Shown piece after piece: positions 25,698 through 47,162 of a stretch of 47,605 bases of DNA (the stretch's first letter is position 1; each line of letters starts with the position of its first letter). Position numbers and translations under genes: made by a program. The notes under the pieces were generated by a model. That model saw only the letters and a program-made list of their open reading frames with translations, did no database searches and was not told the DNA's origin. The stretch is from an uncultured Verrucomicrobia subdivision 3 bacterium (GTDB lineage Bacteria > Verrucomicrobiota > Verrucomicrobiia > Limisphaerales > UBA11358). The stretch covers positions 1-47,605 of the forward strand of contig CAILMI010000004.1 of assembly GCA_903835255.1 (NCBI GenBank), written 5' to 3'.

Positions 25698-28007
25698 TCA
25701 TGGATCAAAAGTCAGCGCTACTTTTTGTCCTGCCGGAAGCTTCAGCGCCGAGAGCGTCGCCCACCCCTCTGCCACCTGCACCCCTTTTTCGGGATGGCGC
25801 AAACGGGTTGTGCCGTTCGGCAGCCGCACGCGCAGAATGCGGGTGCAATCGGCGCCCGAACAATTTTCCAGCGTCACGCATACTCGATTCGTTTTGAATT
25901 CAGCCGAGACCAGAATGCCCCCCTTCGCGGCCAGTTTATCAAAGGCAACTCCCCGCCGTTCCCACTCGGCGGGAATCGCAGGAAAGACTGCGATCACTTT
26001 TTCGTCGTCGGGATCTAATAGCATCTGGGTCAGATTGCAGATCAAGGCGGCATGCGCTGCCACTTCTGGAGTCTTCTTGAAGTCCTCAGTGTCACTGACC
26101 AACTCGCCGAAACAGGAATCGTCGAAAAGGGCGACGCCCGGCTGAAGGAAGTTTCTCGCCCAGCGAATCGCCTCATCGCCCTTGCCCAGTTTCGCCGCGA
26201 TCACCCCCATCCATCCGTTGTTGAATATGTAATTGCCTGTCTTTGAAGTGCGGAACAGCGAGTAGCTATTGCTGACTAGCGGAGCCTGCGCCGCCACCAC
26301 CGGGTAATACCAAACCGGACTGAGCCAGGTGGCATCGCCGGAATTCTCAGCCGGTGTCGCACCCGGGCCCACCGTGAGGACTTTATTTCCTTTGTAATCC
26401 GCGGTAGGCAGCAAAACTTTAGAGGCCATGTCTTTCCACTCCGGCTCTGCCACGCCACGCCGAACCGACTCCCGCAAACCAAATAGCGTTCCGGCCTGCT
26501 GCACTGTGGCAGCCATGTTTTTGTTTAAATAGGCGTTGAGGTCAGGACGCCATTGCAGATCTTCCACGGATACCTGGGTGGTCTCTTTGAGAATCCGCTT
26601 TGCGAGTGTTTCGTAATGGCTGTCGCCGCTCCAATCGACATAGTTGACCGCCATAAGCGCCGCATTGTTTCCGGAGAAATCCTCATGCGCCCAGACGCCT
26701 TCGCCTTCCGTCGGGGGCACCAGAATCGTGCCGTCGTAGCCCATGAGGGGACCGAACTTCGCGCCCCCGCTATATTTCGTCGAGACGTTGTGCAACGCGA
26801 GTCCTTCCGTGGCGTAGCGCTCCGCCCGCGGCAGCGCGCGTTCCACCCAGCCCACGACCCGCCGGGCTTCCTCAAAATGATTCCCGTAGAGCAGTGCCAT
26901 CTGATTTAATACCAAGTCATACTCGGGACAAATCGCTCCGGCAAAACTCTCCACGCTCGTGCCGTTACAACCCGGAGGAATATCCGTTTTGCCGAAAAAA
27001 ACTCCCATGTAATACGTGGACCGGGCGAACCAATTCGCCAGATCGCGGTCGGGCACATCCACTGCGGATCGCGCATAAAACTTTTTCCACCATTTTGCCG
27101 TTTCCACACGCAAGGATTCGAATCCACGCGTTTTAGCTGATTCCGCTTTTTGCCAAGCCGTCGCGACCGGGTCGGCGCTTTCGTAGGAAGAACCGGGTGC
27201 GATGTAAAAAGTGACGGTCTTTCCCGGCTTCGTGGCACCCAGCCGCAATTTTTCAGGATCCAAGAACGCGTCTGCGCCTTCGCACGCTAGGGCGAGTGTG
27301 GCCACGCAAGATTTCGGGCGATTCGCCACCACCACCAATCCCTCGGTTTTGGAAACGCCCGACCCCATCCAAGGCGCGTGTTCTTTGGCGTAGACACCGC
27401 CATTCAGATAGATCCGGACGTTTGAGTTGACGTCCACGCGCACCTGAAATGGCAAGGGGGCATTCGTGGAATCGCTGATGCGAATCACCAGCACACCTTC
27501 GGGCGTGACGAACATCTCCCGACGGCTTTGAAACGTCTTCGTGCCCGCCTTGGCAGAATTCGTTTGAACAAAATCCGCCTTCAGTCCCAAATCAATCGTG
27601 AGCAAACCCGTGGCAATATCCAAGTGATGGCGGAAGTTTTCCACCTGTCCATGCTGAAGATTCGGCCCGTAACCGCCGACCAAATCAAAGGGAAGATGAC
27701 GGTGTGCTTCCTCGTCCCACCAATATTGATAGGAAAGATAAGGCAAGTGCTGGAGCCAGCCATTGGTGGCAACCGCCATCGCTCCCGGCTGGGTAAATCC
27801 GTCGGGGCCGACCCGCATCACCGTCCCCCCCAGGCCCAAACATTCATACTCATACTGTGGATTCCGAAAACGTTCCAAGCCGTCCTTCACAAAGGCGGCC
27901 TGTTGAATGGTTTTCCCCCAGACTTCAGTGACCTGATCGCTTGCGTTTGCCACTTTAGAAATGACCATCGCACTGAGCACCAAGGCAGAAAGCAGACACG
28001 GATTCAC
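25698..28007 (-). CDS. Secreted (alpha/alpha)6-barrel glycoside hydrolase, GH95-like
   Basis: This is a 769-residue exported protein. I place the start at the GTG at 28007: it overlaps the GH78 stop in a GTGA quartet, is preceded by GGGAGGCGG, and gives a signal peptide (LLSALVLSAMVISKVANA). An N-terminal beta-sandwich (about 30-300) is followed by a helical toroid (about 310-680) with GYDGTILVPPTEGEGVWAHEDFSGNNAA. A C-terminal beta domain contains VFPAIPAEWERRGVAFDKLAAKGG, the kind of tail seen in GH95 enzymes (alpha-L-fucosidases and alpha-L-galactosidases). Assignment to GH95 is by layout and tail only; another six-hairpin family such as GH65-like is possible. It is the last gene of the polysaccharide operon. 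Confidence 0.6.
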   Translation of the reverse strand: MNPCLLSALVLSAMVISKVANASDQVTEVWGKTIQQAAFVKDGLERFRNPQYEYECLGLGGTVMRVGPDGFTQPGAMAVATNGWLQHLPYLSYQYWWDEEAHRHLPFDLVGGYGPNLQHGQVENFRHHLDIATGLLTIDLGLKADFVQTNSAKAGTKTFQSRREMFVTPEGVLVIRISDSTNAPLPFQVRVDVNSNVRIYLNGGVYAKEHAPWMGSGVSKTEGLVVVANRPKSCVATLALACEGADAFLDPEKLRLGATKPGKTVTFYIAPGSSYESADPVATAWQKAESAKTRGFESLRVETAKWWKKFYARSAVDVPDRDLANWFARSTYYMGVFFGKTDIPPGCNGTSVESFAGAICPEYDLVLNQMALLYGNHFEEARRVVGWVERALPRAERYATEGLALHNVSTKYSGGAKFGPLMGYDGTILVPPTEGEGVWAHEDFSGNNAALMAVNYVDWSGDSHYETLAKRILKETTQVSVEDLQWRPDLNAYLNKNMAATVQQAGTLFGLRESVRRGVAEPEWKDMASKVLLPTADYKGNKVLTVGPGATPAENSGDATWLSPVWYYPVVAAQAPLVSNSYSLFRTSKTGNYIFNNGWMGVIAAKLGKGDEAIRWARNFLQPGVALFDDSCFGELVSDTEDFKKTPEVAAHAALICNLTQMLLDPDDEKVIAVFPAIPAEWERRGVAFDKLAAKGGILVSAEFKTNRVCVTLENCSGADCTRILRVRLPNGTTRLRHPEKGVQVAEGWATLSALKLPAGQKVALTFDP

Positions 28008-31000
28008 AAGCCGCCTCCCACAACTTGAAAGTGATAAGTGCCGGAACCCACTTGCATCTCCACGCGGTCCCCGTTCATGGCGGCACCGGAGATTCCCGTC
28101 ACCCCGCTGACGTAAGCCCCATTTGACCATACCGATTTGCCACCTTCATGAACTGAAAACGGGCCGGTTCCGCTGCCCGGCAGGCTTACCGTGGCGGACG
28201 TATTTGCTGGAATCGTCACGTTCACAGCCAAAGCTCCGCCGCTTTTTTCCCATCTCACCTCAATTGTTCCATGAATGCTGTCGTAGGACGCCTGCGCCCA
28301 GGTCAGCCCCGCCCCGACAGCCGGTTTGATAACAAGGTTTTGAAAACCCACGCCCTTCTGATCGATGCCTCCCACATGGCAAAACAACCATTCAGTGATC
28401 GAGGCCATGAGGTCGGGCATGCTGAACGAATTCATGCGATAATCTTGAAATCCTTTTTCCGGAGTCCAACTGTCCCAACGCTCCCAGGTGGTGGTGGCGC
28501 CGATTGTAACGGGATAGAGCCATGACGGATAGGTATCCTGCAGCAGCAGCGAATAGGCCACGTCGTTGCGTCCGTAGGTGCTCAGAACCGGTAGCAGCGC
28601 ACCGGAACTGTGAAACCCGGTGCTCAAGTGGCCCGGCGGTATGATGGGGTTTTTCCCCAGCGCATCGGCACGTGTCTGCTGATGGCTCTTATTCTGAATA
28701 TCATTGACCAGATTGGAGACCGCCAAGGGGATTTTATCGGGCGGGATAAATCCGTAATACAATGCCAGAGCATATTCCATCTGGCTGTCATCACGCACCA
28801 CTCCCCGAGAAGACACATACGCTCTGTCAAAGGCAACACACATGTTCGTGAACAGGCTGCGATACGCTGCGGCGTCGGACGTCCGGCCAATGGCGGCGGC
28901 CATCTCCGCCATCTTCTTAACCGAGGCGCCATTCAACAGCGTGTTGAAAATATCGGCGTCTCGTTCCCTGTTTTCGGCGACAGCCACCCAGTCCCCGTAA
29001 CCCACAAAATTGGTGTCCCCGGGGTAAGGTGTGTGCAGGTTGGCCGGACGCAAGTTGCCCACCAGCTTGCTTTGGAGATAGCCGATGTATTTTGCCATGG
29101 CATCGTAGTGTTTCTCGATGATGCCCGTATCGCCATAAGCCTTGTAGAGGCCGTAAGGAACGGAAATGCCGTCGTCCGACCAGCCAGGCGAATCGACATC
29201 GCCCCAGAATGGCGCACACTGCTGGAAGACGGCGCCATTATGGCTGCGGGATTGAGAATCCACCTGATCCACCTCCCACTTGGAGAGGAAACCGGCGATG
29301 TCGAGGGCATACGTCCACGTTTTAATCATCGGCGTCTTGGCACACCAACCAATTCGTTCTGCGCGATCTGCGTCGCCCGTGGGGACGGATAATAAATTGC
29401 CCCACATTGTCCGCAGAATATTGCTGTAAAGCAGGTTGACCCGTTCATCGGAACACGTGAAAGTGCCCGTTTGGAGCGCGGTGGTGTTGGCTGCCACCCC
29501 CCTGAGATCGTCCAGGGTGGGCGTCCCCGGATAGCCGGTAACTTCCACATAACGGAATCCGCGCCAGGAAGTGCTCGGCTCCCAGACTTCTCTGCCATCC
29601 CCCTTCAGGCAATAGACGTCAATGGGGCGTATGCCTAACAAATTGTCGGTGTAGAGGCTGCCATCAGGATTGAGAACCATGGAATAGCGCAGGGTAATTT
29701 TTGCGCCCCGTTGGCCGGAGGCTTTAATCCTGGCCCAGCCGGAAATGCCTTGCCCGAGATCAAATACAAATACTCCCGGGCTGAGGTTCGTCACGCCCAC
29801 AGGAACGATTTCCTGCTGAACTTGGATCGGATTCGCTGGCGAAACGCCGATCTGGATATCCGGTGCCGGCCAGACATGCACGGGTTTCCAATTGGCATCA
29901 CCGAACGCGGCCGTGTCCCAGCCGGGCATTTCCAGCCGCGCATCATAGAGCTCGCCTTGCTGCATATCTCCCTCGCGAATCGGCCCGTACGCGAGCTTCC
30001 ACGAATCATCCGTGACCACGGCCTGCCGGGTTCCGTCGGCATACTCGATTTTCAGCTGGGCGCACAATTTGGGCACGGTGCCGTAGACGTTGGGGGACGC
30101 ATAGCAATACCCGCAATACCAGCCGCCGGCCAAAAGTGCGCCCACCGCGTTGGTGCCATTCCTCAGCAATCCGGTGACGTCATAGGTCTGGTAATTCACC
30201 CGCTTGCTGTACTCCACATAGCCCGGATTGAAATAGTCCCGCCCCACCCGGGAACCGTTCAGATGCATCTCATAATTTCCCAGGGCGGTGACATAGAGAA
30301 TGGCCCGCTGCACCGGTTTAGAGACGGCAAACACAGTCCGCAAATAGGGCGGCGGCGGCAGATCCCACTTTTTGGCATCTCCGTCTCCGAACGAAACGGC
30401 ACCCCACGGCGCCATACCCAGCGAACCTAGCACTATAGGTGCCACCCAGTCGCGATCATCGAAATTCGGGGTCTTCCAGTGAGCTCGTTCCTGACTCGAA
30501 GTTTTCCAAGACGGATCGACAAAAATTTCCACCGTCGTGTGATCGTCAAATTGCACCGTCAATTTGCCGGTGAGGCCAGCCGCACTGTCCGTATTGGTTG
30601 CGGCAATCGCTAGGGTGTTCACCCCCGGGGTTAGAAATTCCTTCAAGTTGAGCTTCGCCGGTTGCGACCAGTTCTCGCTCTGACCCGCCTGAATTCCGTT
30701 GATAAATAATATGAAGCCGTTGTCGCAAGTCAGATTAAAGGTCGCATTCGTCATTTGTTTTCCCGCCGCCATCGTGAACTGCCGTCGAAAATAGCGCGTG
30801 CCGGCTGCCGCAACTTCATTGGGTTTTCCCTCCGGATACCAGATCCATTGGTATCCTTCGGCGTTGGGGTCAGCCGTCCGATTCTCTTCGCCAATCCACC
30901 GGGCCGCCGCCCACTCCTCTGGCTTGAGCAGGCCCATCGTCCAGAGCGCCGCCTCGCTCCAGGCGGAGGGCTGGCCGTTCACATCCCAGGCGCGCACCTT

Positions 31001-31366
31001 CCAGAAGCATTGTTGACCTGACTTCAGCGGCACACCTGGGTAAGACAACAGCGCCGACTGATCCGACAGCACTTTTCCGCTGTCCCACAGATCCCCCGTA
31101 TTTTGTTTCAGCAACGATTCGCTGGATGCCACGAGCACCTGATACGCGGTCTGTCGCTGCCCCCGTTCGGACGACGTCAGGATCCAGCTCAGCCGCGGAT
31201 GGGCCGCATCGAGGCCCAGCGGGTTTTCCTTATATTCACAGCGCAACTTCGCTGTCGCCAGATTCGGCGCGGCCAGCGCCTCGCCGTTTGTCAACAGAAC
31301 CAGCAGACCCAGCAGGGAAACCACGTTTTTCCGGAATACTTGGATGCGATCTAATTTTAATTTCAT
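28004..31366 (-). CDS. Secreted alpha-L-rhamnosidase, GH78
   Basis: This 1120-residue exported enzyme releases terminal alpha-L-rhamnose. After the signal peptide (LLGLLVLLTNGEALA) come an N-terminal Fn3-like domain (about 40-145), carbohydrate-binding beta-sandwiches (about 185-500, with LGNYEMHLNGSRVG), a second sandwich, the helical catalytic barrel (about 635-1000) and a C-terminal beta domain. Within the barrel DADRAERIGW carries the general-acid Glu670, WSDDG (Asp731, Asp732) is the conserved substrate-contact loop, and TTWERWDSW carries Glu962, equivalent to the catalytic base. Family length and order are normal. Its stop overlaps the GH95-like start by four bases. The product matches the adjacent rhamnose catabolic operon. 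Confidence 0.95.
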   Translation of the reverse strand: MKLKLDRIQVFRKNVVSLLGLLVLLTNGEALAAPNLATAKLRCEYKENPLGLDAAHPRLSWILTSSERGQRQTAYQVLVASSESLLKQNTGDLWDSGKVLSDQSALLSYPGVPLKSGQQCFWKVRAWDVNGQPSAWSEAALWTMGLLKPEEWAAARWIGEENRTADPNAEGYQWIWYPEGKPNEVAAAGTRYFRRQFTMAAGKQMTNATFNLTCDNGFILFINGIQAGQSENWSQPAKLNLKEFLTPGVNTLAIAATNTDSAAGLTGKLTVQFDDHTTVEIFVDPSWKTSSQERAHWKTPNFDDRDWVAPIVLGSLGMAPWGAVSFGDGDAKKWDLPPPPYLRTVFAVSKPVQRAILYVTALGNYEMHLNGSRVGRDYFNPGYVEYSKRVNYQTYDVTGLLRNGTNAVGALLAGGWYCGYCYASPNVYGTVPKLCAQLKIEYADGTRQAVVTDDSWKLAYGPIREGDMQQGELYDARLEMPGWDTAAFGDANWKPVHVWPAPDIQIGVSPANPIQVQQEIVPVGVTNLSPGVFVFDLGQGISGWARIKASGQRGAKITLRYSMVLNPDGSLYTDNLLGIRPIDVYCLKGDGREVWEPSTSWRGFRYVEVTGYPGTPTLDDLRGVAANTTALQTGTFTCSDERVNLLYSNILRTMWGNLLSVPTGDADRAERIGWCAKTPMIKTWTYALDIAGFLSKWEVDQVDSQSRSHNGAVFQQCAPFWGDVDSPGWSDDGISVPYGLYKAYGDTGIIEKHYDAMAKYIGYLQSKLVGNLRPANLHTPYPGDTNFVGYGDWVAVAENRERDADIFNTLLNGASVKKMAEMAAAIGRTSDAAAYRSLFTNMCVAFDRAYVSSRGVVRDDSQMEYALALYYGFIPPDKIPLAVSNLVNDIQNKSHQQTRADALGKNPIIPPGHLSTGFHSSGALLPVLSTYGRNDVAYSLLLQDTYPSWLYPVTIGATTTWERWDSWTPEKGFQDYRMNSFSMPDLMASITEWLFCHVGGIDQKGVGFQNLVIKPAVGAGLTWAQASYDSIHGTIEVRWEKSGGALAVNVTIPANTSATVSLPGSGTGPFSVHEGGKSVWSNGAYVSGVTGISGAAMNGDRVEMQVGSGTYHFQVVGGGL

Positions 31367-31574: not shown

Positions 31575-32969
31575 TCAAAGCGTTTTCGGAGCCGGTCCTT
31601 TAAGGGGTTGGCCGCGGCGCATCTCATCCGCGGCTGAGCCAGAAAGTGTCAGCTCAATGACCGTACCGCTTTTGTCCTGTTGGCTGACAGGCAATGTGAG
31701 GGTGATGCCGTCCGCAGTTTGTTTGAATGCGATCGAACATTTGACGATCTTTGCCTTTAGCGGCGGCAGCACTAAACGGTCTCCGCCCCACTGAAATACA
31801 TGCAGATAAACCAGGTTGTCCTTGTAGGTGGATCCCCCCCACGCACCGTTGTGGAAGGGGCCGCCGCGAGTGCCGCAGATGCTCTCTCCGTGCTTACGCA
31901 TCCACTCGCCCATTTCCCTGAGCCGCCCCGCTTGATCCGCGGGAATCTCGCCCAGCGCGTTCGGCCCCACATCCAGCAGCAGGTTGCCATCCCCGGTTGC
32001 GCAGCTAGCCAGCATCTGAATACATTCGTCCAAAGGTCGGATGAAGTTCTGGTCCGAACGATATGACCAGGCGTAGCCACCGGGAGTATGGATGATCATG
32101 TGGCACGTTTCCCAGGGACGATTATTTTGAAAGGAACCGACGGTTCCTTCCGGCGTGTCATGGTCCCCAAGCGAGGAATAAGCCGAGATGGTTGTATTTG
32201 TGTTGCCGGGAAACCATATGTTCGCCAGGCGATTATTGATGATCACCTGAGGCTGCAGTTTCTGAATCAGGGCCAGCATCTCATCCGCATGCCAAAACGG
32301 GATCGAGTCGCCCGCTCCAAAACCGTCGAACCACAGGCAGTCGATCTTTCCGTACTGCGTCAGCAACTCGGTCAACTGGCCTTTCATGTAAGCGGTGTAT
32401 TTCGCATTGTCACCGACGCCATAGTCCGGCTGGTGCCAGTCGCGCGGAGAATAATAGAGGCCAAAACGCATGCCAGCCTGATGGCAGGCCTCGGCCAACT
32501 CCTTCACCACATCCCGCTTGAAGGGAGTGTGCATGATCGAATAATCAGTCAGCTTCGTGTCCCACATGCAAAAGCCGCCATGATGCTTCGCGGTGAAGAC
32601 GATGTACTTCATCCCGGCGGCCTGAGCCAGGCGCACCCACTCTTTAGCATTAAAGTGGGTCGGATTGAACCGCTCGTAGAGATGGTCATACACGGGGTCT
32701 TCCACATAACCGGCAGGGGATTTGTCCACGTCCAGCGGCCGCGCGGATTGGCGCGACCAGCTGATTTCCGTTCCCGCGATGCTGGACATGTCCCAGTGAA
32801 TGAACATCCCGAAGCGGGCCTCGGTCCACCATTTCATCCGGGCGGCGCGGGCGGCATCCGTCTCAGCGGCAAAGGGAGGAGGTGATGCCGCCGTGGTTTG
32901 CGCGAGGAGGTTGGTAGATGGCAGTGCCAAGAAGAAAATCAGCAGCGCTCGCAGAATATGATTTTTCAT
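31575..32969 (-). CDS. Secreted alpha-L-fucosidase, GH29
   Basis: This 464-residue exported glycosidase has a signal peptide ending near LLAQ. The TIM-barrel contains WWTEARFGMFIHWD at the start, FNAKEWVRLAQAAGMKYIVFTAKHHGGFCMWDT (the substrate His pair at 129-130) and CLWFDGF, where Asp215 is the expected nucleophile. The LLLDVGPNALGEIP block near residue 330 is typical of GH29. A small beta domain closes the protein. The position of the acid/base residue is variable in this family and was not assigned. The product would be L-fucose or a related 6-deoxy or L-galacto sugar. Gaps are 64 bp from the esterase gene and 208 bp to GH78; the latter could hold an internal promoter. Confidence 0.94.
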   Translation of the reverse strand: MKNHILRALLIFFLALPSTNLLAQTTAASPPPFAAETDAARAARMKWWTEARFGMFIHWDMSSIAGTEISWSRQSARPLDVDKSPAGYVEDPVYDHLYERFNPTHFNAKEWVRLAQAAGMKYIVFTAKHHGGFCMWDTKLTDYSIMHTPFKRDVVKELAEACHQAGMRFGLYYSPRDWHQPDYGVGDNAKYTAYMKGQLTELLTQYGKIDCLWFDGFGAGDSIPFWHADEMLALIQKLQPQVIINNRLANIWFPGNTNTTISAYSSLGDHDTPEGTVGSFQNNRPWETCHMIIHTPGGYAWSYRSDQNFIRPLDECIQMLASCATGDGNLLLDVGPNALGEIPADQAGRLREMGEWMRKHGESICGTRGGPFHNGAWGGSTYKDNLVYLHVFQWGGDRLVLPPLKAKIVKCSIAFKQTADGITLTLPVSQQDKSGTVIELTLSGSAADEMRRGQPLKGPAPKTL

Positions 32970-33033: not shown

Positions 33034-33903
33034 TCATTTACCAACGGCTGTTACTTCCTTGTAGATCAAAGGCCATTGCTGGAGGAATGTCTTGGCCATG
33101 ATTTCATGGCCAACACTATTAGGATGTACCCCCTCAGTGCCTTCGTAAGCCGCTTTCACATCGGCCAGCATGGGCGTTCGCAGATCAATGACATGGACAT
33201 CGTTGCGGTCATTGAGCGACAGCAACCACCCGGCATACTGCCCCATGACGTAGTCGTAGTAGGGATAGATACAGATATACCCGAACTTGCCGGGATTTTT
33301 CTCGGCATCCACTTCCCCCTCTGCATTCAACTGGGCAAGCAGCTCGGTCACATCCTGCGCACTGGTCCCCTTGGGCAATTCCAGTCCCGGACGAGCATAG
33401 GGCGGTGCCGTCAGTAAAACTAAATGAGCTCCAGAGGCGTGCACTTTTTTGATGAGTGTCTCGATGCCAGCCTGGTAAGCGGAGAACCTTGTTTTGTTGA
33501 ATGGGTGGTAGATACCATCATTGATCCCGTAGCAGGCAACCACCCAGTCCGGTTTTACCTCCGCCAGTTCCTGATCAAGGCGTGCGAAAAGGCAAGGTCT
33601 TGGCCCCGGCGGGTGGTTCGGTTCGCTCAAGCCGGAAACCGTTTCGCTGCCCCGCCCGCGATTGACCCCCTTCCATGAATTTAATGGCAACTGCTTAGCC
33701 AGTTCAGCCTCAATGATCCGGACATATCCTCCGGCTGCCGTAATGCTATCGCCCAGGAAAAGTACGGTCTTAACCTCAAGGTTGCCCGCTAATCGGATAT
33801 CCCTGTTCTGCCAGTGCGTGACTTCAATCTGGTTGGTCGAGCCATGGGCTTGAGTGCTAGTGATCAGGATGAGGGCTGCAAGGAAAGGGATGGGCTTTTT
33901 CAT
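33034..33903 (-). CDS. Secreted SGNH/GDSL hydrolase (probable carbohydrate esterase)
   Basis: This 289-residue exported protein (signal peptide ending near TQAHGS) has the four SGNH blocks: VLFLGDSITAAGG (catalytic Ser), a Gly-containing RGRGSETVSG, ACYGINDG (Asn in the oxyanion hole) and EGVHPNSVGH (Asp-less form with catalytic His). In polysaccharide loci such enzymes often remove acetyl or other ester groups. The exact ester cannot be inferred. It starts 20 bp after the sulfatase stop, so the two are tightly coupled, which suggests that the target glycan carries both sulfate and ester groups. Confidence 0.88.
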   Translation of the reverse strand: MKKPIPFLAALILITSTQAHGSTNQIEVTHWQNRDIRLAGNLEVKTVLFLGDSITAAGGYVRIIEAELAKQLPLNSWKGVNRGRGSETVSGLSEPNHPPGPRPCLFARLDQELAEVKPDWVVACYGINDGIYHPFNKTRFSAYQAGIETLIKKVHASGAHLVLLTAPPYARPGLELPKGTSAQDVTELLAQLNAEGEVDAEKNPGKFGYICIYPYYDYVMGQYAGWLLSLNDRNDVHVIDLRTPMLADVKAAYEGTEGVHPNSVGHEIMAKTFLQQWPLIYKEVTAVGK

Positions 33904-33923: not shown

Positions 33924-35459
33924 TTACCGCGCCAGGTTGCTTCGGTAGGCTTCGAGTTGCAGACGCATTTTATCCGCAACACCAGCGCAATCGCCATCCG
34001 CGATGCGGTTGACCCTTTCGTCCGGATCCACTTTCAGATTAAATAACTGTACCACCACCGGCGTTTCGCCGGTGTAACGCACGTATTTCCATTCCGTCGA
34101 GCGAACCGCCTCGCTCGGTGCAATCCGTCCGTCAGCGGTCCAGGTGTGTTCATAGAACCAATCGCTCCGCCACGCGGGATGCTCACCGCGCAGCAGCGGC
34201 GTGAGGTCCTTGCCTTGCATCTCACCCGGGATGCGGCAGCCCGCGAGCGCCACCAGGGTGGGCGCCCAATCGATGTTGAGCACCATCTCCTCCCGCTTCA
34301 CACCACGCCGTTCCGCTGGCAGTCGAGGATCATAGACCAGGAACGGAACCCGGATGGAGCCCTCGTAAGGCAGCCACTTTCCCCAAAATCCATGTTCCCC
34401 GAGAAAGTGGCCGTTGTCGGACGCAAACAGGATGATTGTGTTATCTGCCACGCCTTCCTCCTTCAGCAGACGACGCAATTTCCCGACGGCGGCATCCATG
34501 GTTGAGATGGAGCGGTAATACTTCCGGATTTCACCCGCCAAGGCATTGGAATCTCCGACCATTCTCATGCCGTGCTCGGAGCCCATGGACTTCCGCAGGA
34601 ACTCCGGCTGAAGCAGCGCGTCCGCGCGGGTGGCAGTCTTCGGAAGGGGCATGGCAGCCGTTTCATAGTAGCGGGCGTAATTTTCAGGGCAATCGCCCCA
34701 AGGGTCTTTGGGCGCGCGAAAGGAAATTGAGAGAAGAAACGGTTTGTCCTTGTCGCGACCGGCGAGGAACTGCTTCGCCTTCAGGGGGACGATATCCAAA
34801 TCGGTGGGAATCGGGTCCTTCATTCCCCCATGCCCGGTGCGCGGCATCGAAGCATCCGGCGGGCAGGTGCAGCGAATATCCTCCTTGGCCTGCGTCCCGC
34901 TGTTCGTCACGAAGGGACAATCTCGTTCGTGCCAATAGTTGCCATGAAAGCGATCTCCTCCCCAGTAATCAAATAATTCTGTGCCAAACCGGAACCCGTC
35001 TTCCCCGGTACCCACGTCCCACTTCCCAATGTGTCCCGTGTAATAACCCCCGCGCCGCAGCACGGCCGGATAGATGGCGGAAGGGCTATCGGGCGTTACG
35101 ATCTTAGGCAAGTCACCCACGCCTCGCCGTCGGGCGTATTGACCGGTAACAATGGATACCCGGCTGGGACTGCAAACCGATGTGGTGACAAAAGCGTTCT
35201 GGAAAATCACTCCCGCGTGAGCCAGAGCATCTATTTCAGGTGTGCGAACGACCGGATTGCCCATGCATCCCAGTGTGTCCCAGCGCTGATCATCTGTTAA
35301 TAGGAACAGGATGTTAGGCCGGCGAGAGTTGTTGTCGTTCGCCGTCAGAGATTGGGCTGAGCTACAGGAAACCCAACAGACCCAGCCGATGGCCAGCACA
35401 AGACTCAGAACATGTTTTAAAAGTTTGCTGGGCGTCTCGCGTTGCGAGTGAAGTGTCAT
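33924..35459 (-). CDS. Secreted sulfatase, type I (formylglycine-dependent)
   Basis: This 511-residue exported sulfatase follows a signal peptide (about residues 16-35). RRPNILFLLTDDQRWDTLG supplies the metal-binding Asp pair (56-57). VCSPSR (95-100) is the C-x-P-S-R motif in which Cys96 is converted to formylglycine. ASDNGHFLGEHGFWGK near residue 340 supplies the second metal-binding Asp-Asn. It would desulfate a polysaccharide or oligosaccharide. The Cys-type motif needs either FGE or an anaerobic maturase, and neither gene is in the window. It lies 51 bp after the beta-helix/propeller gene and 20 bp before the esterase gene. Confidence 0.94.
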   Translation of the reverse strand: MTLHSQRETPSKLLKHVLSLVLAIGWVCWVSCSSAQSLTANDNNSRRPNILFLLTDDQRWDTLGCMGNPVVRTPEIDALAHAGVIFQNAFVTTSVCSPSRVSIVTGQYARRRGVGDLPKIVTPDSPSAIYPAVLRRGGYYTGHIGKWDVGTGEDGFRFGTELFDYWGGDRFHGNYWHERDCPFVTNSGTQAKEDIRCTCPPDASMPRTGHGGMKDPIPTDLDIVPLKAKQFLAGRDKDKPFLLSISFRAPKDPWGDCPENYARYYETAAMPLPKTATRADALLQPEFLRKSMGSEHGMRMVGDSNALAGEIRKYYRSISTMDAAVGKLRRLLKEEGVADNTIILFASDNGHFLGEHGFWGKWLPYEGSIRVPFLVYDPRLPAERRGVKREEMVLNIDWAPTLVALAGCRIPGEMQGKDLTPLLRGEHPAWRSDWFYEHTWTADGRIAPSEAVRSTEWKYVRYTGETPVVVQLFNLKVDPDERVNRIADGDCAGVADKMRLQLEAYRSNLAR

Positions 35460-35510: not shown

Positions 35511-38417
35511 TCATTTCACCAAACGATAAAAGCGCGCCCCGCTGCTGCGCGTGTCGTAAACCACGTTCTCACTGCTTTCCACCGTCACTGACAAGCTGGG
35601 GCTAGTGTAGCCAGCGTTCACCGTTGCAGACCGCTGCAGGGCGTAACCCGTGGCTGTCGTCGGCCAGGAGATCCGCACCTGATTGCCCGTCCACGGCTGA
35701 ATCTTCAGCGCGGGTGGAGTAACGACACTGACGTAAACCAGATAGGATACCGGCTTCTCAGCAAAGTCTGGAGCGGGCGTTTCCGATGCGCCGCTGCCGG
35801 GATTCGTCATCGGCCAGCGGCAGCGTTGATGTTCCCGAAGCGGCACGACGCTCACCGTCTCCACTCCATAGGCCCAATCCACGGAAGCCGCCGGCAATTG
35901 GAACGCACCTGTATTGGTATTGCCGGCGCTGTTGGTGAGCTGCACCAGACTGATGTGTAGGTTCGTGACCGGAACATTAAACCACATGCTGATTTTTCCT
36001 GCACCCGGCGAAACCCGGAGATACCCTGGAATAGTGATTGCGTCAGATGGACTCGTTGTATTGGTCAAGTGCAGCTGGAAGGGATAGTTGCCTCCGGAAG
36101 TCGGCTGCCACGTCGCGCCTTCGGCCGTAAGCGCGACTCCAGGCTTGGGTGCCGACTGGAGCGTAAAACTATTCTGCGGATCGTAGCAGACGAGCTTGTT
36201 GTCGCGGGCGAGCGTGCAATAAACCTTGCCGTCGGGCCCCGCCGAGGGGAACTGAGGATAGTCTATGCCAGACACCACGGTGGTCTTGACGCCGTTGGTC
36301 GTAATTTTAACTAGCACGCCCGAATTTCCATTGTCCCACACATTGGCCTCCGCCGCGACATAGAGGTCGCCGTTGGGAGCCAGGGCAATGCCCCGGCCGC
36401 GCCCAAATCCGCCCGCGAGCGGTCGGGTCACGCCGTTCGTCTCGCACACCCACACCGCCCCCTGCGTCAGGATCGTTCCCGTGCCGCCGGGCCGGGCATA
36501 AGTGCAATAGTAAATTCGACCATCGGGCGCGACAGTGACACCTTCTAGCACCGGCGGCGTCTGCATCAAAAATCCGGCCGCTCCCGTGTTCTTGGTCCAT
36601 TTAAAAATTCCGCCCCATTCTTGAACCACATACACATTGCCCGCCGTGTCCACCGCCACCTGTTTGGGACACGAAATCCCACTGATGATATCCTGCTCGA
36701 CGCCGTTGGGCTTCCGCCACACCACCTTGCTGGCACCCGCGCCAAAATCTTGGGCATAAAAAAGGTTTCCGACCGGATCAATGGCCACCCCAAAAAGACC
36801 TGACCGATTTGAGACAACGGTGGTCATCGCGCCGCTGGCGGGATTGTATTTTTGAATTCTCTGATTGCCAAATTCCGTGAAATAAACCTCCCCATTGGTG
36901 GCCACCGCGCTGCCGAAACTATAGTCGGCATTCGTCGGGGATTTCAGCCCTGTGGGGACCCAAGCCATGCCTTGATCTAAACTCGGATTCAAGTTGGTGA
37001 ACACCTCGGGGTTCCACGCTGTGAATGCGGGCATGTCGAACCCAGGATAGAGGGCGGTGATCACCGCGCTACCAGGGATGAGCGTCTGATTGATGTTGAA
37101 GCTATTCGTGCTGTCAGCCAGACCATAGGCGGAAATGGCCCCGTCGTTCATCCAGAACCGGGCATTGTCAAGCTGACTGTTTGGCAGCACCAGCGTGCCG
37201 CCCGCAATATTCAGGACCGTCGGATGAGTCTCCGTAATGAACAGGCTGCTCGCTGCCAGCGTGCCGCCCGTGAGATACAACTGTGAACCTCCTACCGTGA
37301 TATTTGTGTCCCCGTTGGAATTCAAAAGCAAGCTACTAACGCTGACGGAACCAGCGGAAATATTCATGATAGCCGTGGCCCCATTGCAGCCGGCGACATC
37401 GAGAGAATTGCTGACGGATAGCGCTCCCCCGCGGACGTTTAGAGTGGCTGAAGTCGATTCTGCCAGCTTTAACGTCGCCGCCGCCAAGGCCCCGCCGTTA
37501 GTGACGGTCATGCTCTTGTTCACGTGAACGTCGTTGAGAACGGCATTGCTGCTGCTGTTGATGAGGGGTTCGCGCACGCCCCAGGAATACAGATAGAGCG
37601 TGTTGCCGGTTTCCGGAACCCCCGGCAGATTGGCGCCGTCCGATTGAAAGTTATTGGGATTGGCCCAGCTCTGGGAAACATTTCCGTTCCAATAGCGAAC
37701 GGTTACCGGCACCCCGGTAAGCACCAGGTTTCCCGGATTGGAGGAGCTATCCACGTTCACCGTACCCGCGCCCCCATAACCCTTGATATTGCCGCTATTT
37801 ATCCAATAGGTGACGTTGGTGGAGTTGCTGTCCGGGAGAATCAGCGTGCCGCCGGCAAGATTCAGCACGGCGGGATGCGTCGAATTGATTGAAAGCGGCC
37901 CCAACTCTGTGATCGTTCCACCCGTCAGGTTGAGATAGGAAGCTCCCGTGCTGGCCCCGCTCAGGTTCAAATAAAGTCCCCCGACCGTGAGAGCTCCCGC
38001 CGACATGTTCAGGGTCGCGGTCCCGCCGCTATAGCCGCCAACATCCAGATGATTGATGGCCGATAATTCTCCTCCAGTAATAGTGAGGGTAGCCGATGCG
38101 TTTTGCGCCAGCTTTAATAAAATGGATTCCAACTTCCCGCCTGAGGCAATCGTGAGGCTCTTACTGACATAAATATCATTGACCGGCTCATTGCTGGAAG
38201 TGTTGATGAGCGGTTCCCGCGACCCCCAGGACTCCAGCGCAACGGTGTCATAGGCTTGAGGGACGCCCGGGAGATTGGAGCCGCTGGCTTGGAAATTGTT
38301 CGGGTTCGTCCAGTCCTGTGATACGTTGCCGTTCCAGTAGACCGTAGCTCCTAAACAGTGGAACAGGCTGGCGCCCCATACCATGAGCGCAAAGTAGAAT
38401 TTCCGCATGCGTTTCAT
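35511..38417 (-). CDS. Secreted protein with two beta-helix modules and a beta-propeller
   Basis: This 968-residue exported protein is of unknown function. After the signal peptide (ending near HCLGA, residue 24) it has two successive modules of about 215 residues. Each starts YWNGNVSQ.W.NPNNFQ and continues with many TLN.SAG and LNLAGGTL turns typical of right-handed beta-helices. Residues about 495-770 form an NHL/SMP-30-like propeller with repeated VA.D..GN.Y turns. The C-terminus is an Fn3-like stretch and a tail ending GARFYRLVK, a form common at the ends of verrucomicrobial secreted proteins. No catalytic motif is evident. It sits between GH127 (41 bp) and the sulfatase (51 bp), so a role in binding or scaffolding the glycan is likely. 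Confidence 0.85.
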   Translation of the reverse strand: MKRMRKFYFALMVWGASLFHCLGATVYWNGNVSQDWTNPNNFQASGSNLPGVPQAYDTVALESWGSREPLINTSSNEPVNDIYVSKSLTIASGGKLESILLKLAQNASATLTITGGELSAINHLDVGGYSGGTATLNMSAGALTVGGLYLNLSGASTGASYLNLTGGTITELGPLSINSTHPAVLNLAGGTLILPDSNSTNVTYWINSGNIKGYGGAGTVNVDSSSNPGNLVLTGVPVTVRYWNGNVSQSWANPNNFQSDGANLPGVPETGNTLYLYSWGVREPLINSSSNAVLNDVHVNKSMTVTNGGALAAATLKLAESTSATLNVRGGALSVSNSLDVAGCNGATAIMNISAGSVSVSSLLLNSNGDTNITVGGSQLYLTGGTLAASSLFITETHPTVLNIAGGTLVLPNSQLDNARFWMNDGAISAYGLADSTNSFNINQTLIPGSAVITALYPGFDMPAFTAWNPEVFTNLNPSLDQGMAWVPTGLKSPTNADYSFGSAVATNGEVYFTEFGNQRIQKYNPASGAMTTVVSNRSGLFGVAIDPVGNLFYAQDFGAGASKVVWRKPNGVEQDIISGISCPKQVAVDTAGNVYVVQEWGGIFKWTKNTGAAGFLMQTPPVLEGVTVAPDGRIYYCTYARPGGTGTILTQGAVWVCETNGVTRPLAGGFGRGRGIALAPNGDLYVAAEANVWDNGNSGVLVKITTNGVKTTVVSGIDYPQFPSAGPDGKVYCTLARDNKLVCYDPQNSFTLQSAPKPGVALTAEGATWQPTSGGNYPFQLHLTNTTSPSDAITIPGYLRVSPGAGKISMWFNVPVTNLHISLVQLTNSAGNTNTGAFQLPAASVDWAYGVETVSVVPLREHQRCRWPMTNPGSGASETPAPDFAEKPVSYLVYVSVVTPPALKIQPWTGNQVRISWPTTATGYALQRSATVNAGYTSPSLSVTVESSENVVYDTRSSGARFYRLVK
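37053..38348 (-). repeat. Intragenic duplication of a ~215-residue beta-helix module
   Basis: Residues 24-236 and 238-455 of the encoded protein align along their whole length. Examples are YWNGNVSQDWTNPNNF against YWNGNVSQSWANPNNF, SWGSREPLINTSSN against SWGVREPLINSSSN, and matching AGGTL.LP segments near each end. The copies have diverged at many positions, so the duplication is not recent. Confidence 0.88.
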
Positions 38418-38458: not shown

Positions 38459-40465
38459 TTATTTTCCGGGCGATTCATCTAGCCGGAGCGGAAACTCCAC
38501 CCGGACATCTTTACCCACGCCGTCCTCGGAATAAACATTAAACACGCCCTCCTTGGGAGGCGGCACCGGCTTGTCGCTTACTCCGCTATACGTGTAGGGC
38601 GTTACAACAAACGACGGGCGGGGCGCTTTTCCGCCGGCCGTAACATTTGTAGAAGCAGCGGCACGGAATCGGGCTGTGCTCGTGTTGACCGCCTTCAGCT
38701 TTGACAGCGGTTCCAGCTGAAGAATGCCATTTGCGGCAACGACGGGAGCAATCGCTTCTAGGTTGACACCTGGATTGAGCTTCGCGGTCGCGGCGAGCAG
38801 CAGCGGCCCGCGCTCTAAAGTCATGACCTGATGTCCGGGATGGTTGGCGAAGTCGCGCCGGACAGCGTGCCCGGGCATATCCAAAACCAGTTCCACCGTA
38901 TTGCCAGTTTTCCATTGCCGGCTGATTTTAAAGAGCGTTCCCGGCATGGGCGCCGCACCGTCAACCCGTTTGCCGTTCACCAGAACACGCGCGCCCTGAC
39001 ACCACTTCGGGATGCGCAACAAAAGATCAAACTGGGCCGGACGCTCCGGTTTGATTTTAAGTTTTACCGTTCCATCCAGCGGATACTCGGTGGTTTGCTC
39101 AATTTTTACCGGCACATCCCCGATGCGGGTGGACAGCACTGAAGATTCATAAAGATTCACCAGAATGCCGTTGGGGGTGTCAAAATAGGCCCAGTTGGGA
39201 ATATAAGACAGGCCGACCACCAGCATGCTATAGCAGCAATGAAAGATGTTGGTCTGCGGCACATCCAGCCCCGGCCACACACTGCCATCCGGCAGATCGC
39301 GCGAGAGCAGCGCGTTGTAGAGATTCCACTCCACCGCATCGAGGTATTGGGAATCGCCGGTGATGCGGCTCATTTCCACATACCACCGAATCATCGGCAC
39401 AATGTCGCAGGTCTCCAGAAAGCCATAGTAGGTATCCGGGACTCGCATTCCTGGCGGCGGGGATTTAAAACCGTGCAGGGAAGCGGTCGCGTTCAATGGC
39501 GCGAAATAACCCGTGTAGAGAGTTTGCGGTGTTGCAAAGAATTGAGGGTCGCCGGTGCCGCGGTAGAGCTGGCACATCCCGGCGAGGCAGAGCTCAAATT
39601 CGCAGTGCTTGATCTGCGCCCACTCCGGGAACGGATATCCCTCCTTCGAGGTCGCTGTCATTTGGATGGGAACTTTACCCTGTCGACCGTATTGGGTGGT
39701 GATGTAGTTGGCAAAATCACGATACCGCCCGTCGCCGGTCAAAAGATACAATTCGGAAAACGGAAAGATTCCCACCCCGGGCCCAAATCCATGATCATGG
39801 TTGATGAGCATGAGATCCTGCTTGCCCTCACCAAACGTGGCGATGATCAAGTCAGCAATCTTCCGAACTGCGTCCAACGCCGGCTGGCTGCCGGTGACTT
39901 CGTAGTAGCGCATCAGCCCGCCCATGGTGAGATAATGACACCAGATGTCGTAAAACGGCCCGTTGTAGAACGGCACATACTTTTTATCCACATTCGCCTT
40001 CCAATCGTATTTGTGGAAACGGTATTCCGGGGCGTAGGATCCCAGCCAGCCGTCGGGCTGCTGCAGCTGGATGAGGCGATCCACTGTTTGATCCACTAAT
40101 AAGCGGAGTTTTGCGTCATGGGTATAGGCCATCGTGTTGCAGGCGCTTTCCAGCCATTTGCCGATATGTTCGGCCTGCCAGATATTGGTGTCGGTCGGAT
40201 GCTCAAACACGTTGAGATACGTCTCGCGCTGACCCTGGAAAAGCCGACCGGGAACTGCCGCAACATGTTTACCCAGCAACCCAGTCAGCTTCACCTGATC
40301 ACTCTCCACCGGCGTGAACTGGTCGCTGATGACCGGCTTAAATGTGTTTGGAGACAACGCATTCTGACCATGGCTTGAATTTGAACTCTCCGCCGCAGGG
40401 GCGGACCAGCCTTGGAGGAGTGCAACAGCCACCCCAAAAACACCCAATAAGTTGTGCCTTTTCAC
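38459..40465 (-). CDS. Secreted beta-L-arabinofuranosidase-like enzyme, GH127
   Basis: This 668-residue enzyme is of the former DUF1680 family. I choose the GTG at 40465 because it is 26 bp after the previous stop and gives a signal peptide (LLGVFGVAVALLQGWSAPAA). The longer frame to 40609 would overlap the upstream gene by over 100 bases. The (alpha/alpha)6 barrel shows IGKWLESACN and PDGWLGSY. The zinc-thiolate active site described for GH127 is intact: FLETCDIVP gives Glu351 and Cys353, and FHCCYS gives Cys410-Cys411, one of which is the nucleophile. A C-terminal beta-sandwich follows. GH127 relatives act on beta-L-arabinofuranose, but some homologues have other specificities, so arabinose is the best guess. 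Confidence 0.87.
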   Translation of the reverse strand: MKRHNLLGVFGVAVALLQGWSAPAAESSNSSHGQNALSPNTFKPVISDQFTPVESDQVKLTGLLGKHVAAVPGRLFQGQRETYLNVFEHPTDTNIWQAEHIGKWLESACNTMAYTHDAKLRLLVDQTVDRLIQLQQPDGWLGSYAPEYRFHKYDWKANVDKKYVPFYNGPFYDIWCHYLTMGGLMRYYEVTGSQPALDAVRKIADLIIATFGEGKQDLMLINHDHGFGPGVGIFPFSELYLLTGDGRYRDFANYITTQYGRQGKVPIQMTATSKEGYPFPEWAQIKHCEFELCLAGMCQLYRGTGDPQFFATPQTLYTGYFAPLNATASLHGFKSPPPGMRVPDTYYGFLETCDIVPMIRWYVEMSRITGDSQYLDAVEWNLYNALLSRDLPDGSVWPGLDVPQTNIFHCCYSMLVVGLSYIPNWAYFDTPNGILVNLYESSVLSTRIGDVPVKIEQTTEYPLDGTVKLKIKPERPAQFDLLLRIPKWCQGARVLVNGKRVDGAAPMPGTLFKISRQWKTGNTVELVLDMPGHAVRRDFANHPGHQVMTLERGPLLLAATAKLNPGVNLEAIAPVVAANGILQLEPLSKLKAVNTSTARFRAAASTNVTAGGKAPRPSFVVTPYTYSGVSDKPVPPPKEGVFNVYSEDGVGKDVRVEFPLRLDESPGK

Positions 40466-40491
40466 GTCGTTGAATGAGTTAAAATTGACTT

Positions 40492-42267
40492 TTATTTTCC
40501 CGTCGCAGGCACCCACTGGCTCCAGTCCACCGTGGCGCGGCTTTCGTGTCCGGGCAGGTCCTTGAATACGGGAGGCATGCGTTGCGGATTGAAATTCGCC
40601 TCCACCCACGCCTTCGGATCGCGCTGGAATTCCGCAAGCTTCTGCGCAACGACCCCGTTGCCCGCTTGATTCTCCACATCCTTCTTGAGCAGGGCCTCCA
40701 ATCGGCTGGTCACGAGGGCAAAGCGCTTGTCATTGTCCTGCGCTAGGCGCGCATCCTGCGCGGCGAGCGTGAGCTGGAAGTGCAGCCCCTTCGCCCGAAG
40801 TGAGCGCGCAGTCTTCCAAACAATTTCGCGCTGCATGCGGATGTCATCGCTCTTTGGCCCGCCCGCGGCAATGGCCTGGTCAAATAAACCGACCGCCTTG
40901 TAACCCAGCGCCGCCGAATCTTCAAATCGCAATGCCGCGTCTTCAAACAGCCAGGGATGCGCGGTCTTGTCCTGCGTGAGCATGAAATTGCCACGGCGGT
41001 TGGCTTTCCAGATCGGCGTGTCCCAGGTGGCGTTGGGAATATTTGCCGGCTCCCAATCGTGCGAGCCATCCCAATGCCGGTCCAAAGCCATCGGCCCGAT
41101 CAGATAGGTGGTATCCCAAGGATACGCCTGCACATGCTGCGAGACATAATCCCAGGCCTGAATCATCAGCGGCGCGGCTTTGGCGCCATAAGGGGCGGCA
41201 ATTTCTTTCAGCAATTTGCTGAGCGGCGCTTTGGGGGATTTCATCCACGCTTTCAGCATCGCCGCGTTTACGGAGAACACCGTAGGCGAAAAACCGTAAT
41301 ACTCCTTCACGCCCACGACGCCTTCCATTTCCTTCCAGCCAATCATCTGTTCGTAAATGAGCTGCGGGAAAAAATCCTCCATCATGTAGAGCGGCTTGTA
41401 GAGCGTGTGATCGAACTCGCCGATCACGGGAATATTGCGCTCCTTGGCCAGCTGCACGAAGCGTTTCACGCCGAGATCGGATTTGAACGAGCGATCGTTA
41501 AACGGATACACCTCGTTGCTGGTGGAGGGATTCAACACGAGGCCGAAGTGCGCGGGGTTGACCTTGTCGAGAATCATCACCACTTGGCCTTTGGTCAGCT
41601 CCCACGGCTTCCACCAGAGGCGCGTGTTCGGGCGGCACTTTTGCATGGTCGCATTGAGCATGTTTAGAAAGCCCGGCACACGGTCGTCCAGCGGCACGCC
41701 GCTGCAACGCGGGCACGGACCAAACTCGCTGCACAGCCACGACTGCTGGTCAAATGTGTAAACCAGCACGTCGTCCACCTCGGGAAACGACGTCATGAAA
41801 TCGGTGAGTTGTTCCTCCGTCTTCTTGAGGATGGCCGGGTCAAGAATGCACGCCGGCTGAAGCGGATTATAGGAGATAAAGCGCGGGACGCCGAACTGGG
41901 CAATAGTTTTCAGACCGTGCTTCTTGGCCTGCTTGATGCGGAACGCCCACTTGGCGCGCTGCTCGGCATCCAAATCCTCCAAGTTGAGAACCTCGTTTGC
42001 CGGCTTGCCGCCCCACGCAATGCTGAGCTGCACCATATTCACGCCCAGCGCCTTGATTTGCTCCAGCTCCTCGTCGCTCCAGCTGATGTCCGGCACGGAC
42101 GGATTACCGACGATGCCGACGAAATATTGGAAACCGCCGGGCTTGGAATTCACTGCGGAAGAAGCGGCAGAGATATTCAGCGCTCCCAAAAGAGCAGCGG
42201 TCGCAAGCATGCGTGCGGCGAATCTTACTTGAGGGAGACAGGGGGTGGAGTCACAGGGGATGGACAT
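40492..42267 (-). CDS. Secreted TIM-barrel-like protein of unknown glycosidase family
   Basis: This is a 591-residue exported protein that I do not recognise at family level. A signal peptide (LATAALLGALNISAASS) precedes a region that reads like a beta/alpha barrel: GVNMVQLSIAW, HGLKTIAQFGVPRF, DDVLVYTFDQQSWLC, HFGLVLNP, IPVIGEFDH and VVGVKEYYGF fall at regular spacing. Cys179, Cys185 and Cys188 form a C-x5-CPRC cluster that resembles metal-binding loops in DUF4838/GH20-like proteins. Glu284 at the end of a predicted strand and Asp173 are possible catalytic acids. The last 150 residues are helical. It is the first gene of the eight-gene polysaccharide operon and has its own candidate promoter just upstream. 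Confidence 0.75.
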   Translation of the reverse strand: MSIPCDSTPCLPQVRFAARMLATAALLGALNISAASSAVNSKPGGFQYFVGIVGNPSVPDISWSDEELEQIKALGVNMVQLSIAWGGKPANEVLNLEDLDAEQRAKWAFRIKQAKKHGLKTIAQFGVPRFISYNPLQPACILDPAILKKTEEQLTDFMTSFPEVDDVLVYTFDQQSWLCSEFGPCPRCSGVPLDDRVPGFLNMLNATMQKCRPNTRLWWKPWELTKGQVVMILDKVNPAHFGLVLNPSTSNEVYPFNDRSFKSDLGVKRFVQLAKERNIPVIGEFDHTLYKPLYMMEDFFPQLIYEQMIGWKEMEGVVGVKEYYGFSPTVFSVNAAMLKAWMKSPKAPLSKLLKEIAAPYGAKAAPLMIQAWDYVSQHVQAYPWDTTYLIGPMALDRHWDGSHDWEPANIPNATWDTPIWKANRRGNFMLTQDKTAHPWLFEDAALRFEDSAALGYKAVGLFDQAIAAGGPKSDDIRMQREIVWKTARSLRAKGLHFQLTLAAQDARLAQDNDKRFALVTSRLEALLKKDVENQAGNGVVAQKLAEFQRDPKAWVEANFNPQRMPPVFKDLPGHESRATVDWSQWVPATGK

Positions 42268-42340: not shown

Positions 42341-42377
42341 GAAAAATTCGGGGCGCACCCAGCGGGCGCGCCCCGAA
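42341..42377 (-). terminator. Rho-independent terminator after the beta-helix gene
   Basis: A perfect 10-bp inverted repeat TTCGGGGCGC / GCGCCCCGAA (42347-42356 and 42368-42377) with an 11-base loop is followed on the minus strand by TTTTTC. It begins 17 bases after the stop of the 804-residue protein and separates that gene from the glycosidase operon. Confidence 0.85.
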
Positions 42378-46238: not shown

Positions 46239-47162
46239 ATGCGAACCCCTCCGATTCCAAATCATCTGAACTGGACGGATTACCATCAGTCGGTCCGGCG
46301 TATTGCAGCCAAATTCAATCCTCATCACGGCAATTACCGCATCCACGATCACGAATTTGTTGAAATGGCTTTCGTGGTCTCGGGAACCTGCTTGCATCAC
46401 ACGGTGCTAGGAGATTGCCGCCCTGGACCGGGCGATGTGTATTTGTTCCGGCCCGGCGCCTGGCATGGCTATTCTGAAGCCAAAAAATTTTCGATGTACA
46501 ATTGCTGCTTCGACACCGCCCTGCTGGGGCGAGAGCTGAGCTGGCTGGCCGATGAACCCTATCTCGGGCGGTTGCTGTGGGGCATTCCGCTGTCGACCCA
46601 GCAACAGGGGATGGTTGCGCTCCACTTATCCCCTCCCGAGTTTAAGCGCTGCTCTAAATTGTTGGATGAACTCTGCAGATTAGCCAAGAAAGATTACCTC
46701 AGCCATTATGGGGATCATCTGGGACTCTTGTTGAACATTCTCAGCATTCTAGCGCGCAACGCTGCCGCTAAATCGGGAAACAAGACAATGACATCGCACC
46801 GGGCCGTGGTTTCGGCCATCAAAATGATTGATGACGCTCCCCGTGAGGTATGGACTCTGACCACCCTTGCGGCGCGGGTTCACATTGAACCCACCTATTT
46901 TTCCCGTCTTTTTCATACAGCGGTTGGGTTACCGCCCATGGCTTACCTGACTCGCCGACGTCTGGAACTCGCCACCTCGTTATTGCGCCGCGACGATTTG
47001 CCCGTGGGCGAAGTGGGCGCGATGGCGGGATGGGAGGACCAGAATTATTTTAGCCGCTGCTTCCGTAAATATTTCGGGATGACCCCCTCCCGCTACCGCG
47101 CCCGTTTTATGGAGGGAAAAATACGTCCTCCCGTTGCGATCAAGGAAGCGGTCAACCGGTAG
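46239..47162 (+). CDS. AraC-family transcriptional regulator
   Basis: This 307-residue regulator has an N-terminal cupin-like sensing domain (about 30-120: RIHDHEFVEMAFVVSG, GPGDVYLFRPGAWHGYSE) and a C-terminal AraC DNA-binding domain (about 190-290). The second helix-turn-helix signature is VGEVGAMAGWEDQNYFSRCFRKYFGMTPSRYR. The ATG at 46239 follows AGTAGGGC, a usable ribosome-binding site. It is divergent from the pseudopilin gene with 120 bp between the starts, making that gene and the ones behind it likely targets. The inducer is probably a sugar from the polysaccharide. It is distinct from the first AraC-type regulator at 24698. Confidence 0.9.
   Translation: MRTPPIPNHLNWTDYHQSVRRIAAKFNPHHGNYRIHDHEFVEMAFVVSGTCLHHTVLGDCRPGPGDVYLFRPGAWHGYSEAKKFSMYNCCFDTALLGRELSWLADEPYLGRLLWGIPLSTQQQGMVALHLSPPEFKRCSKLLDELCRLAKKDYLSHYGDHLGLLLNILSILARNAAAKSGNKTMTSHRAVVSAIKMIDDAPREVWTLTTLAARVHIEPTYFSRLFHTAVGLPPMAYLTRRRLELATSLLRRDDLPVGEVGAMAGWEDQNYFSRCFRKYFGMTPSRYRARFMEGKIRPPVAIKEAVNR

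Follow-up and report, generated by a model that had tools for sequence, protein, structure and literature searches.

What kind of protein stands at the head of a polysaccharide operon, carries an export signal and has the strand/helix rhythm of a beta/alpha barrel, yet matches no glycosidase family? This question is raised by P0001, which is encoded in the window analysed here (the whole stretch of 47,605 nucleotides from an uncultured Verrucomicrobia subdivision 3 bacterium, with a source genome of 3.17 Mb in 70 contigs). The original prediction of an exported barrel outside the named families appears largely right at the family level, as judged from sequence comparison. The N-terminus of P0001 carries a hydrophobic export signal. 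No Pfam model matched the protein above its family cut-off (best E 0.029), NCBIfam gave 0 family matches, and the single sequence had no sequence match in the PDB. Partial Pfam matches to AvrPtoB and GH35 (E 0.03) lay below the cut-off and were regarded as chance. The coordinates of the protein, its predicted elements and its neighbours are given in Table 1.

Table 1. Features of P0001 and of the surrounding gene cluster, with positions in the window.
Feature	Position	Strand	Remarks
P0001 gene	40492..42267	(-)	clade I, 591 aa, ATG start; predicted exported (beta/alpha)8 barrel with helical C-terminal domain
Signal peptide, approximately residues 1-36	42160..42267	(-)	predicted from sequence: basic, then hydrophobic stretch; pLDDT < 50
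(beta/alpha)8 barrel, residues 48-322	41302..42126	(-)	predicted; AlphaFold2 and structural matches
Helical C-terminal domain, about residues 333-558	40594..41271	(-)	predicted; AlphaFold2 model
Cys140	41848..41850	(-)	proposed zinc ligand 1; invariant 15/15; 13/13 in wide set
Asp173	41749..41751	(-)	end of strand 4, candidate acid/base; invariant 15/15; 11/13 in wide set
Cys179-x5-Cys185-Pro-Arg-Cys188	41704..41733	(-)	proposed zinc ligands 2-4; after strand 4
Glu223	41599..41601	(-)	end of strand 5 (WW-x-PWE); invariant 15/15
Glu284	41416..41418	(-)	strand 7, candidate nucleophile or base; invariant 15/15; 7/13 in wide set
Glu322	41302..41304	(-)	end of strand 8; invariant 15/15; Glu/Asp in 11/13 of wide set
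Intrinsic-terminator-like hairpin	42347..42377	(-)	14 pairs (11 G-C), TTTTTC tail; between P0001 gene and upstream gene
Repeat-rich surface protein, 804 aa	42395-44809	(-)	upstream of P0001 gene
Prepilin-like protein	45204-46118	(-)	upstream of P0001 gene
AraC-family regulator	46239..47162	(+)	divergent; relatives (65-70%) near family in L017 and C16 (L022)
GH127-type protein	38459..40609	(-)	Pfam PF07944 E 2e-31, PF20736
968-aa protein	35511..38417	(-)	C-terminal half NHL/Vgb-like beta-propeller; recurrent family partner
Sulfatase	33924..35459	(-)	CSPSR motif; 51% relative adjoins family in L018
GDSL-type esterase	33034..33903	(-)	
GH29 alpha-L-fucosidase-type protein	31575..32969	(-)	Pfam PF01120 E 5e-81
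GH78 alpha-L-rhamnosidase-type protein	28004..31366	(-)	
GH95-like protein, 810 aa	25698..28130	(-)	recurrent partner; C-terminal sub-threshold Pfam match, E 0.018
L-rhamnose isomerase RhaA	23301-24710	(-)	
L-rhamnose symporter RhaT	22100-23278	(-)	

The proposed barrel was recovered in two AlphaFold2 models, built from 8 and then from 11 sequences. In both, eight strands (residues 48-52, 78-82, 120-126, 166-170, 216-220, 241-245, 281-285 and 317-322) alternate with helices and are followed by a helical C-terminal domain. Model quality is only moderate (mean pLDDT 67 vs 69, pTM 0.67 vs 0.70 with 8 vs 11 sequences), and the cysteine loop is poorly modelled (pLDDT < 50 at residues 172-184). VIA-align gave Z 18-20 to many barrel glycosidases, a likeness at fold level only. 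The best solved match in Foldseek was the GH138 structure 6hze (E 1e-9, TM 0.51), and the matches spanning both the barrel and the C-terminal helices were to GH138, GH84 and GH67. The GH67 structure 1l8n aligned over 383 residues (rmsd 4.5). The overlap with these three families reaches TM-scores of 0.34-0.52, and scores no higher than about 0.5 indicate a shared fold only; identity is about 10% and PDB searches gave no sequence match to them.

P0001 is a member of a family with two sister clades, with a mean identity of 72% in clade I, 53% in clade II and 32% between them. Relatives at 62-86% identity to P0001 occur in bins labelled Verrucomicrobia, Hydrogenedentes, Chitinophagaceae and Sphingobacteriales. 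Contig C16 of the P0001 genome itself has another copy at 78% and, in addition, two at 33%. The 33% copies are not stray paralogues, since the neighbourhoods show the second clade beside the first: clade II members adjoin clade I members in L018, L019, L020 and C16, and the C16 locus L021 (3873-7537 and 14090-15850) holds one clade I member and two clade II members in tandem. This second cluster also contains GH43-like proteins, DUF6786 and an arabinose/fucose isomerase-like protein. In L020, SusC and SusD directly precede the clade I gene. The family is rare and patchy in its distribution. BLAST and HMM searches found true members in 3 of the 288 genomes of the phylum, and 2 of 59 close relatives have them, one being the genome of P0001; no relatives were found in viral contigs and plasmids. 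Identity between phyla (63-67%), together with this patchiness, points to horizontal transfer. L016 lies on a 7-kb contig whose sample series is that of L014, and mis-binning is possible in its case. Both members in L018 (5750-7417 and 7464-9104) lack a signal peptide, in contrast to the exported copies, and from its signal peptides the family seems to be active in two compartments.

On one point profile-profile comparison corrects the original prediction: P0001 does not stand alone. The searches of the 288 genomes also returned proteins of about 25% identity (L008, L009, L010, L013 and L035-L037). Such intermediates are matched from the family at E 2e-9 (BLAST) and 4e-10 (HMM), a reverse search with four of them recovers clade I at E 1e-19 to 1e-22, and their profile-profile probability with the family is 98.7-98.9%. 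Against DUF4838 (an alignment of 20 proteins) the family reached 93%, rising to 96% with the intermediates added, and the controls (DUF4838 reversed or with its columns shuffled, and five further proteins from the window) all stayed below 1%; these pairwise hhalign probabilities are uncalibrated against a database, and it is the controls that carry the argument. The family profile gave 1.8% with GH42 and 3.9% with GH20, and the intermediates profile 90-93% and 95%, respectively. The best PDB match of a wide profile was the Thermus GH42 beta-galactosidase 1kwg (E 1.7e-5), with C...CPRC aligned. Taken at profile level, these comparisons place the family as a probable distant branch of the DUF4838/GH163 superfamily, linked through the intermediates. 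DUF4838 is annotated as GH163 (PMC9870897), and the characterised GH163 member strips N-glycans of their LacNAc antennae (PMC10154615).

Membership of the named families themselves was rejected. PF16126 (DUF4838) matches neither P0001 nor 11 relatives, even at E values up to 1, and is absent from the whole genome of P0001, and the Q-N-D motif of strand 4 is not present. Neither PF02449 (GH42) nor PF00728 (GH20) matched P0001 or 11 relatives; moreover, the Asn-Glu of GH42 is absent at strand 4, and the Asp-Glu dyad of GH20 is replaced by Asp173-Gln174. GH67 was suggested by structure, but the profile comparison gave 0.1%. The uncharacterised Verrucomicrobiota proteins of the L008/L009/L013/L044 type share strands 2-8, C140, C179, C185, R187, N334, W372 and Asp173 with the family. 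They differ from it in their low identity (about 25%), in an extra N-terminal domain of at least 130 residues, in the absence of Glu284 and in Asp for Glu322. DUF4838 has the barrel and four cysteines in the same order as P0001, but with the spacing C-x-C instead of C-x5-C; its strand 4 reads SQND in most proteins read, in contrast to TFDQ in P0001, and its N-terminal domain is missing from P0001. In GH42 enzymes with a Cys-Zn site (1kwg; Gal42, PMC8573354), one cysteine likewise precedes strand 4 and a C-P-R-C-type cluster follows it, but the catalytic Asn-Glu is not conserved at strand 4 of P0001, which has Asp173-Gln174 followed by a variable residue.

Where would the active site of such a barrel lie? 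The segments FDQQSW and IGEFDH had been proposed as conserved, and Asp173 and Glu284 had been singled out. In 15 homologues both acidic residues, and the cysteines of the cluster, are invariant, so that the two named residues hold up inside the family. The segments around them hold less well: FDQQSW reads [FY]-D-Q-x-A-W in relatives, S176 being found only in P0001, and Glu284 is the sole universal residue of IGEFDH. Inside the family we found neither a confident match to an existing family nor loss of the acidic residues, the two observations named beforehand as speaking against the original prediction. Four of the five acidic residues near the C-terminal ends of strands (Asp173, Glu223, Glu284 and Glu322) are invariant, compared with 6 of 30 elsewhere in the barrel, a conservation exceeding chance (Fisher p = 0.017). 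Of the clan GH-A pattern the barrel is present in the models; the invariant Asp173 after strand 4 and Glu284 on strand 7 would be candidates for its acid/base and nucleophile. The acid/base Glu of GH42 maps near residue 175 in an HMM alignment in which shifts of one or two residues are possible, and Q175 varies (Q/R/N/H/D). The family-wide invariance favours an active site at Asp173 and Glu284, but across the wider superfamily Glu284 is not kept. We tentatively regard the two as the best candidates for the catalytic pair, at somewhat less than even odds.

The same residues could also serve an inverting exo-glycosidase in the style of GH67 or GH138, such as a uronidase, in which Asp173 would be the acid and Glu284 or Glu322 the base, instead of a retaining, GH42-like enzyme. 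Such a mechanism would suit the GH138, GH84 and GH67 structures that match through barrel and C-terminal helices, the 383 aligned residues of 1l8n and the Glu or Asp kept at position 322 in 11 of 13 wide-set sequences; however, the null profile comparison with GH67 argues against it, and we consider it possible but doubtful.

P0001 might, furthermore, fall into an existing CAZy family that Pfam and NCBIfam do not cover. Pfam models are lacking for many recently described families, and the best Foldseek match, 6hze, comes from the RG-II enzyme family GH138. However, its TM-score denotes fold only, and a set of 12 members, P0001 and its relatives, again gave nothing credible against Pfam and the PDB. 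This leaves no candidate among the families that have a close member of solved structure, and we consider the assignment rather unlikely. Judged against Pfam, NCBIfam and the PDB, a new glycoside hydrolase family is plausible.

The cysteine cluster provides a second handle on the protein. A four-Cys zinc site is present in only part of GH42. The C-x5-CPRC cluster was correctly located after strand 4, but the motif was incomplete: C140 belongs to it, and C140, C179, C185 and C188 are the only invariant cysteines among 15 family members from Verrucomicrobiota, Hydrogenedentota and Bacteroidota. In a wide set of 13 sequences that takes in the intermediates, all four are present in 11, and in the remaining two (L009 and L044) Cys188 is replaced by His (CPRH) with the other three kept; the 288 genomes of the phylum held no further close intermediate-type sequences for this comparison. 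DUF4838 has four equivalent cysteines (C...C-x-C-x2-C), and an Asp as well, in 20 of 20 proteins. In GH42 of this type a structural zinc is bound through Cys113, Cys153, Cys155 and Cys158, with the acid/base Glu148 preceding the last three by five to ten residues; this zinc stabilises the fold but takes no part in the reaction (PMC8573354). The analogy to GH42 rests on the intermediates, because the direct profile comparison was not significant. The original prediction had left open whether the loop is held by a metal or by disulfides. Disulfides alone would agree with the export of most members, as they are common outside the cell, and four cysteines allow two pairs. However, the copies whose N-terminus leaves no space for a signal peptide (L007 and the two in L018) keep all four, the exchange of Cys188 for His is typical of metal ligands and would break a disulfide, and the corresponding GH42 site binds zinc (PMC8573354). 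We regard disulfides as unlikely, and the four cysteines are most likely a structural zinc site as in GH42, probably without a catalytic role. A non-catalytic, glycan-binding barrel is improbable: strand 4 does have Asp-Gln in place of the canonical GH42 Asn-Glu, but four strand-end acidic residues are invariant across clades that are 32% identical.

The surroundings of P0001 agree with the polysaccharide operon that had been proposed, as GH127, GH29, GH78 and GH95-like proteins, a sulfatase, a GDSL esterase, RhaA and RhaT follow downstream on the same strand. The next upstream gene on this strand lies about 130 bases away and is separated by the terminator-like hairpin, so that P0001 is plausibly the first gene of its transcription unit, in support of the earlier assignment. 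A sigma-70-like promoter (42295-42266) shares bases with the start codon and is of chance frequency; it was set aside. Relatives of the upstream 804-aa surface protein and of the prepilin-like protein also stand beside the second cluster on C16 (L021), and those of the surface protein occur in L014 and L017 as well. The listed GH127 reading frame begins within the P0001 gene (118-bp overlap); judging from its signal peptide, translation probably starts internally, further downstream; a 72% relative adjoins the P0001 orthologue in L014. The 968-aa propeller protein has relatives in L017, L021 (54%), L019 and L020 (35%). It accompanies the family in both Verrucomicrobiota and Bacteroidota, the Bacteroidota relative having a Por secretion tail, and could act either as a lyase-like enzyme or in binding. 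The GH95-like protein, another poorly assigned enzyme of the cluster, has 71-72% relatives beside the family in L014, L016 and C16 (L021). Other family loci contain GH106-type proteins (L014, L018, L023) and GH43-like proteins (L014, L017, C16). The GH78, GH29, GH127, sulfatase, RhaA and RhaT genes centre the cluster on L-rhamnose, other neutral sugars and sulfate. From this gene content we infer a rhamnose-, fucose- and arabinose-type, partly sulfated polysaccharide as substrate. In the literature, Verrucomicrobiota are said to specialise in algal sugars that are sulfated and contain fucose and rhamnose (PMC8857213).

On balance, we think it probable that P0001 represents a two-clade family of secreted, zinc-stabilised barrel glycosidases with predicted activity on the polysaccharide of its cluster. 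The enzyme would consist of a (beta/alpha)8 barrel with a helical C-terminal domain, and its family would form a distant branch of the superfamily that includes DUF4838/GH163 and, further off, GH20 and GH42. Cys140, Cys179, Cys185 and Cys188 around strand 4 would hold a structural zinc and shape the strand-4 loop. The active site would be formed by the strand-end residues Asp173 and Glu284, the likeliest pair, with Glu223 and Glu322. Together with the GH78, GH127, GH29 and GH95-like enzymes and the sulfatase, P0001 may dismantle the polysaccharide, and freed rhamnose would be taken up by RhaT and metabolised via RhaA. It is tempting to go further and to regard the two clades as a new glycoside hydrolase family of zinc-stabilised barrels, with Asp-Gln replacing Asn-Glu at strand 4, whose paired sister enzymes attack adjacent linkages in a single rhamnose-rich polysaccharide and which spread horizontally among Verrucomicrobiota, Hydrogenedentota and Bacteroidota; we give this extended proposal an even chance.

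New in this study are the placement in a superfamily, the fourth cysteine with its reading as a zinc site, the co-travelling sister clade and the rhamnose-centred cluster. The cysteine signature allows a single zinc-site hypothesis to be framed that links GH42, the intermediates and DUF4838 within a superfamily that is large and mostly uncharacterised, and the CPRH variants in L009 and L044 are a natural test case for zinc coordination. The recurrent pair of sister clades beside SusC/SusD, GH127, GH78/GH106 and the propeller protein offers a handle on the substrate. If active, P0001 would add an enzyme to the means by which lake and bioreactor bacteria break down sulfated glycans rich in rhamnose and fucose, which are resistant to degradation.
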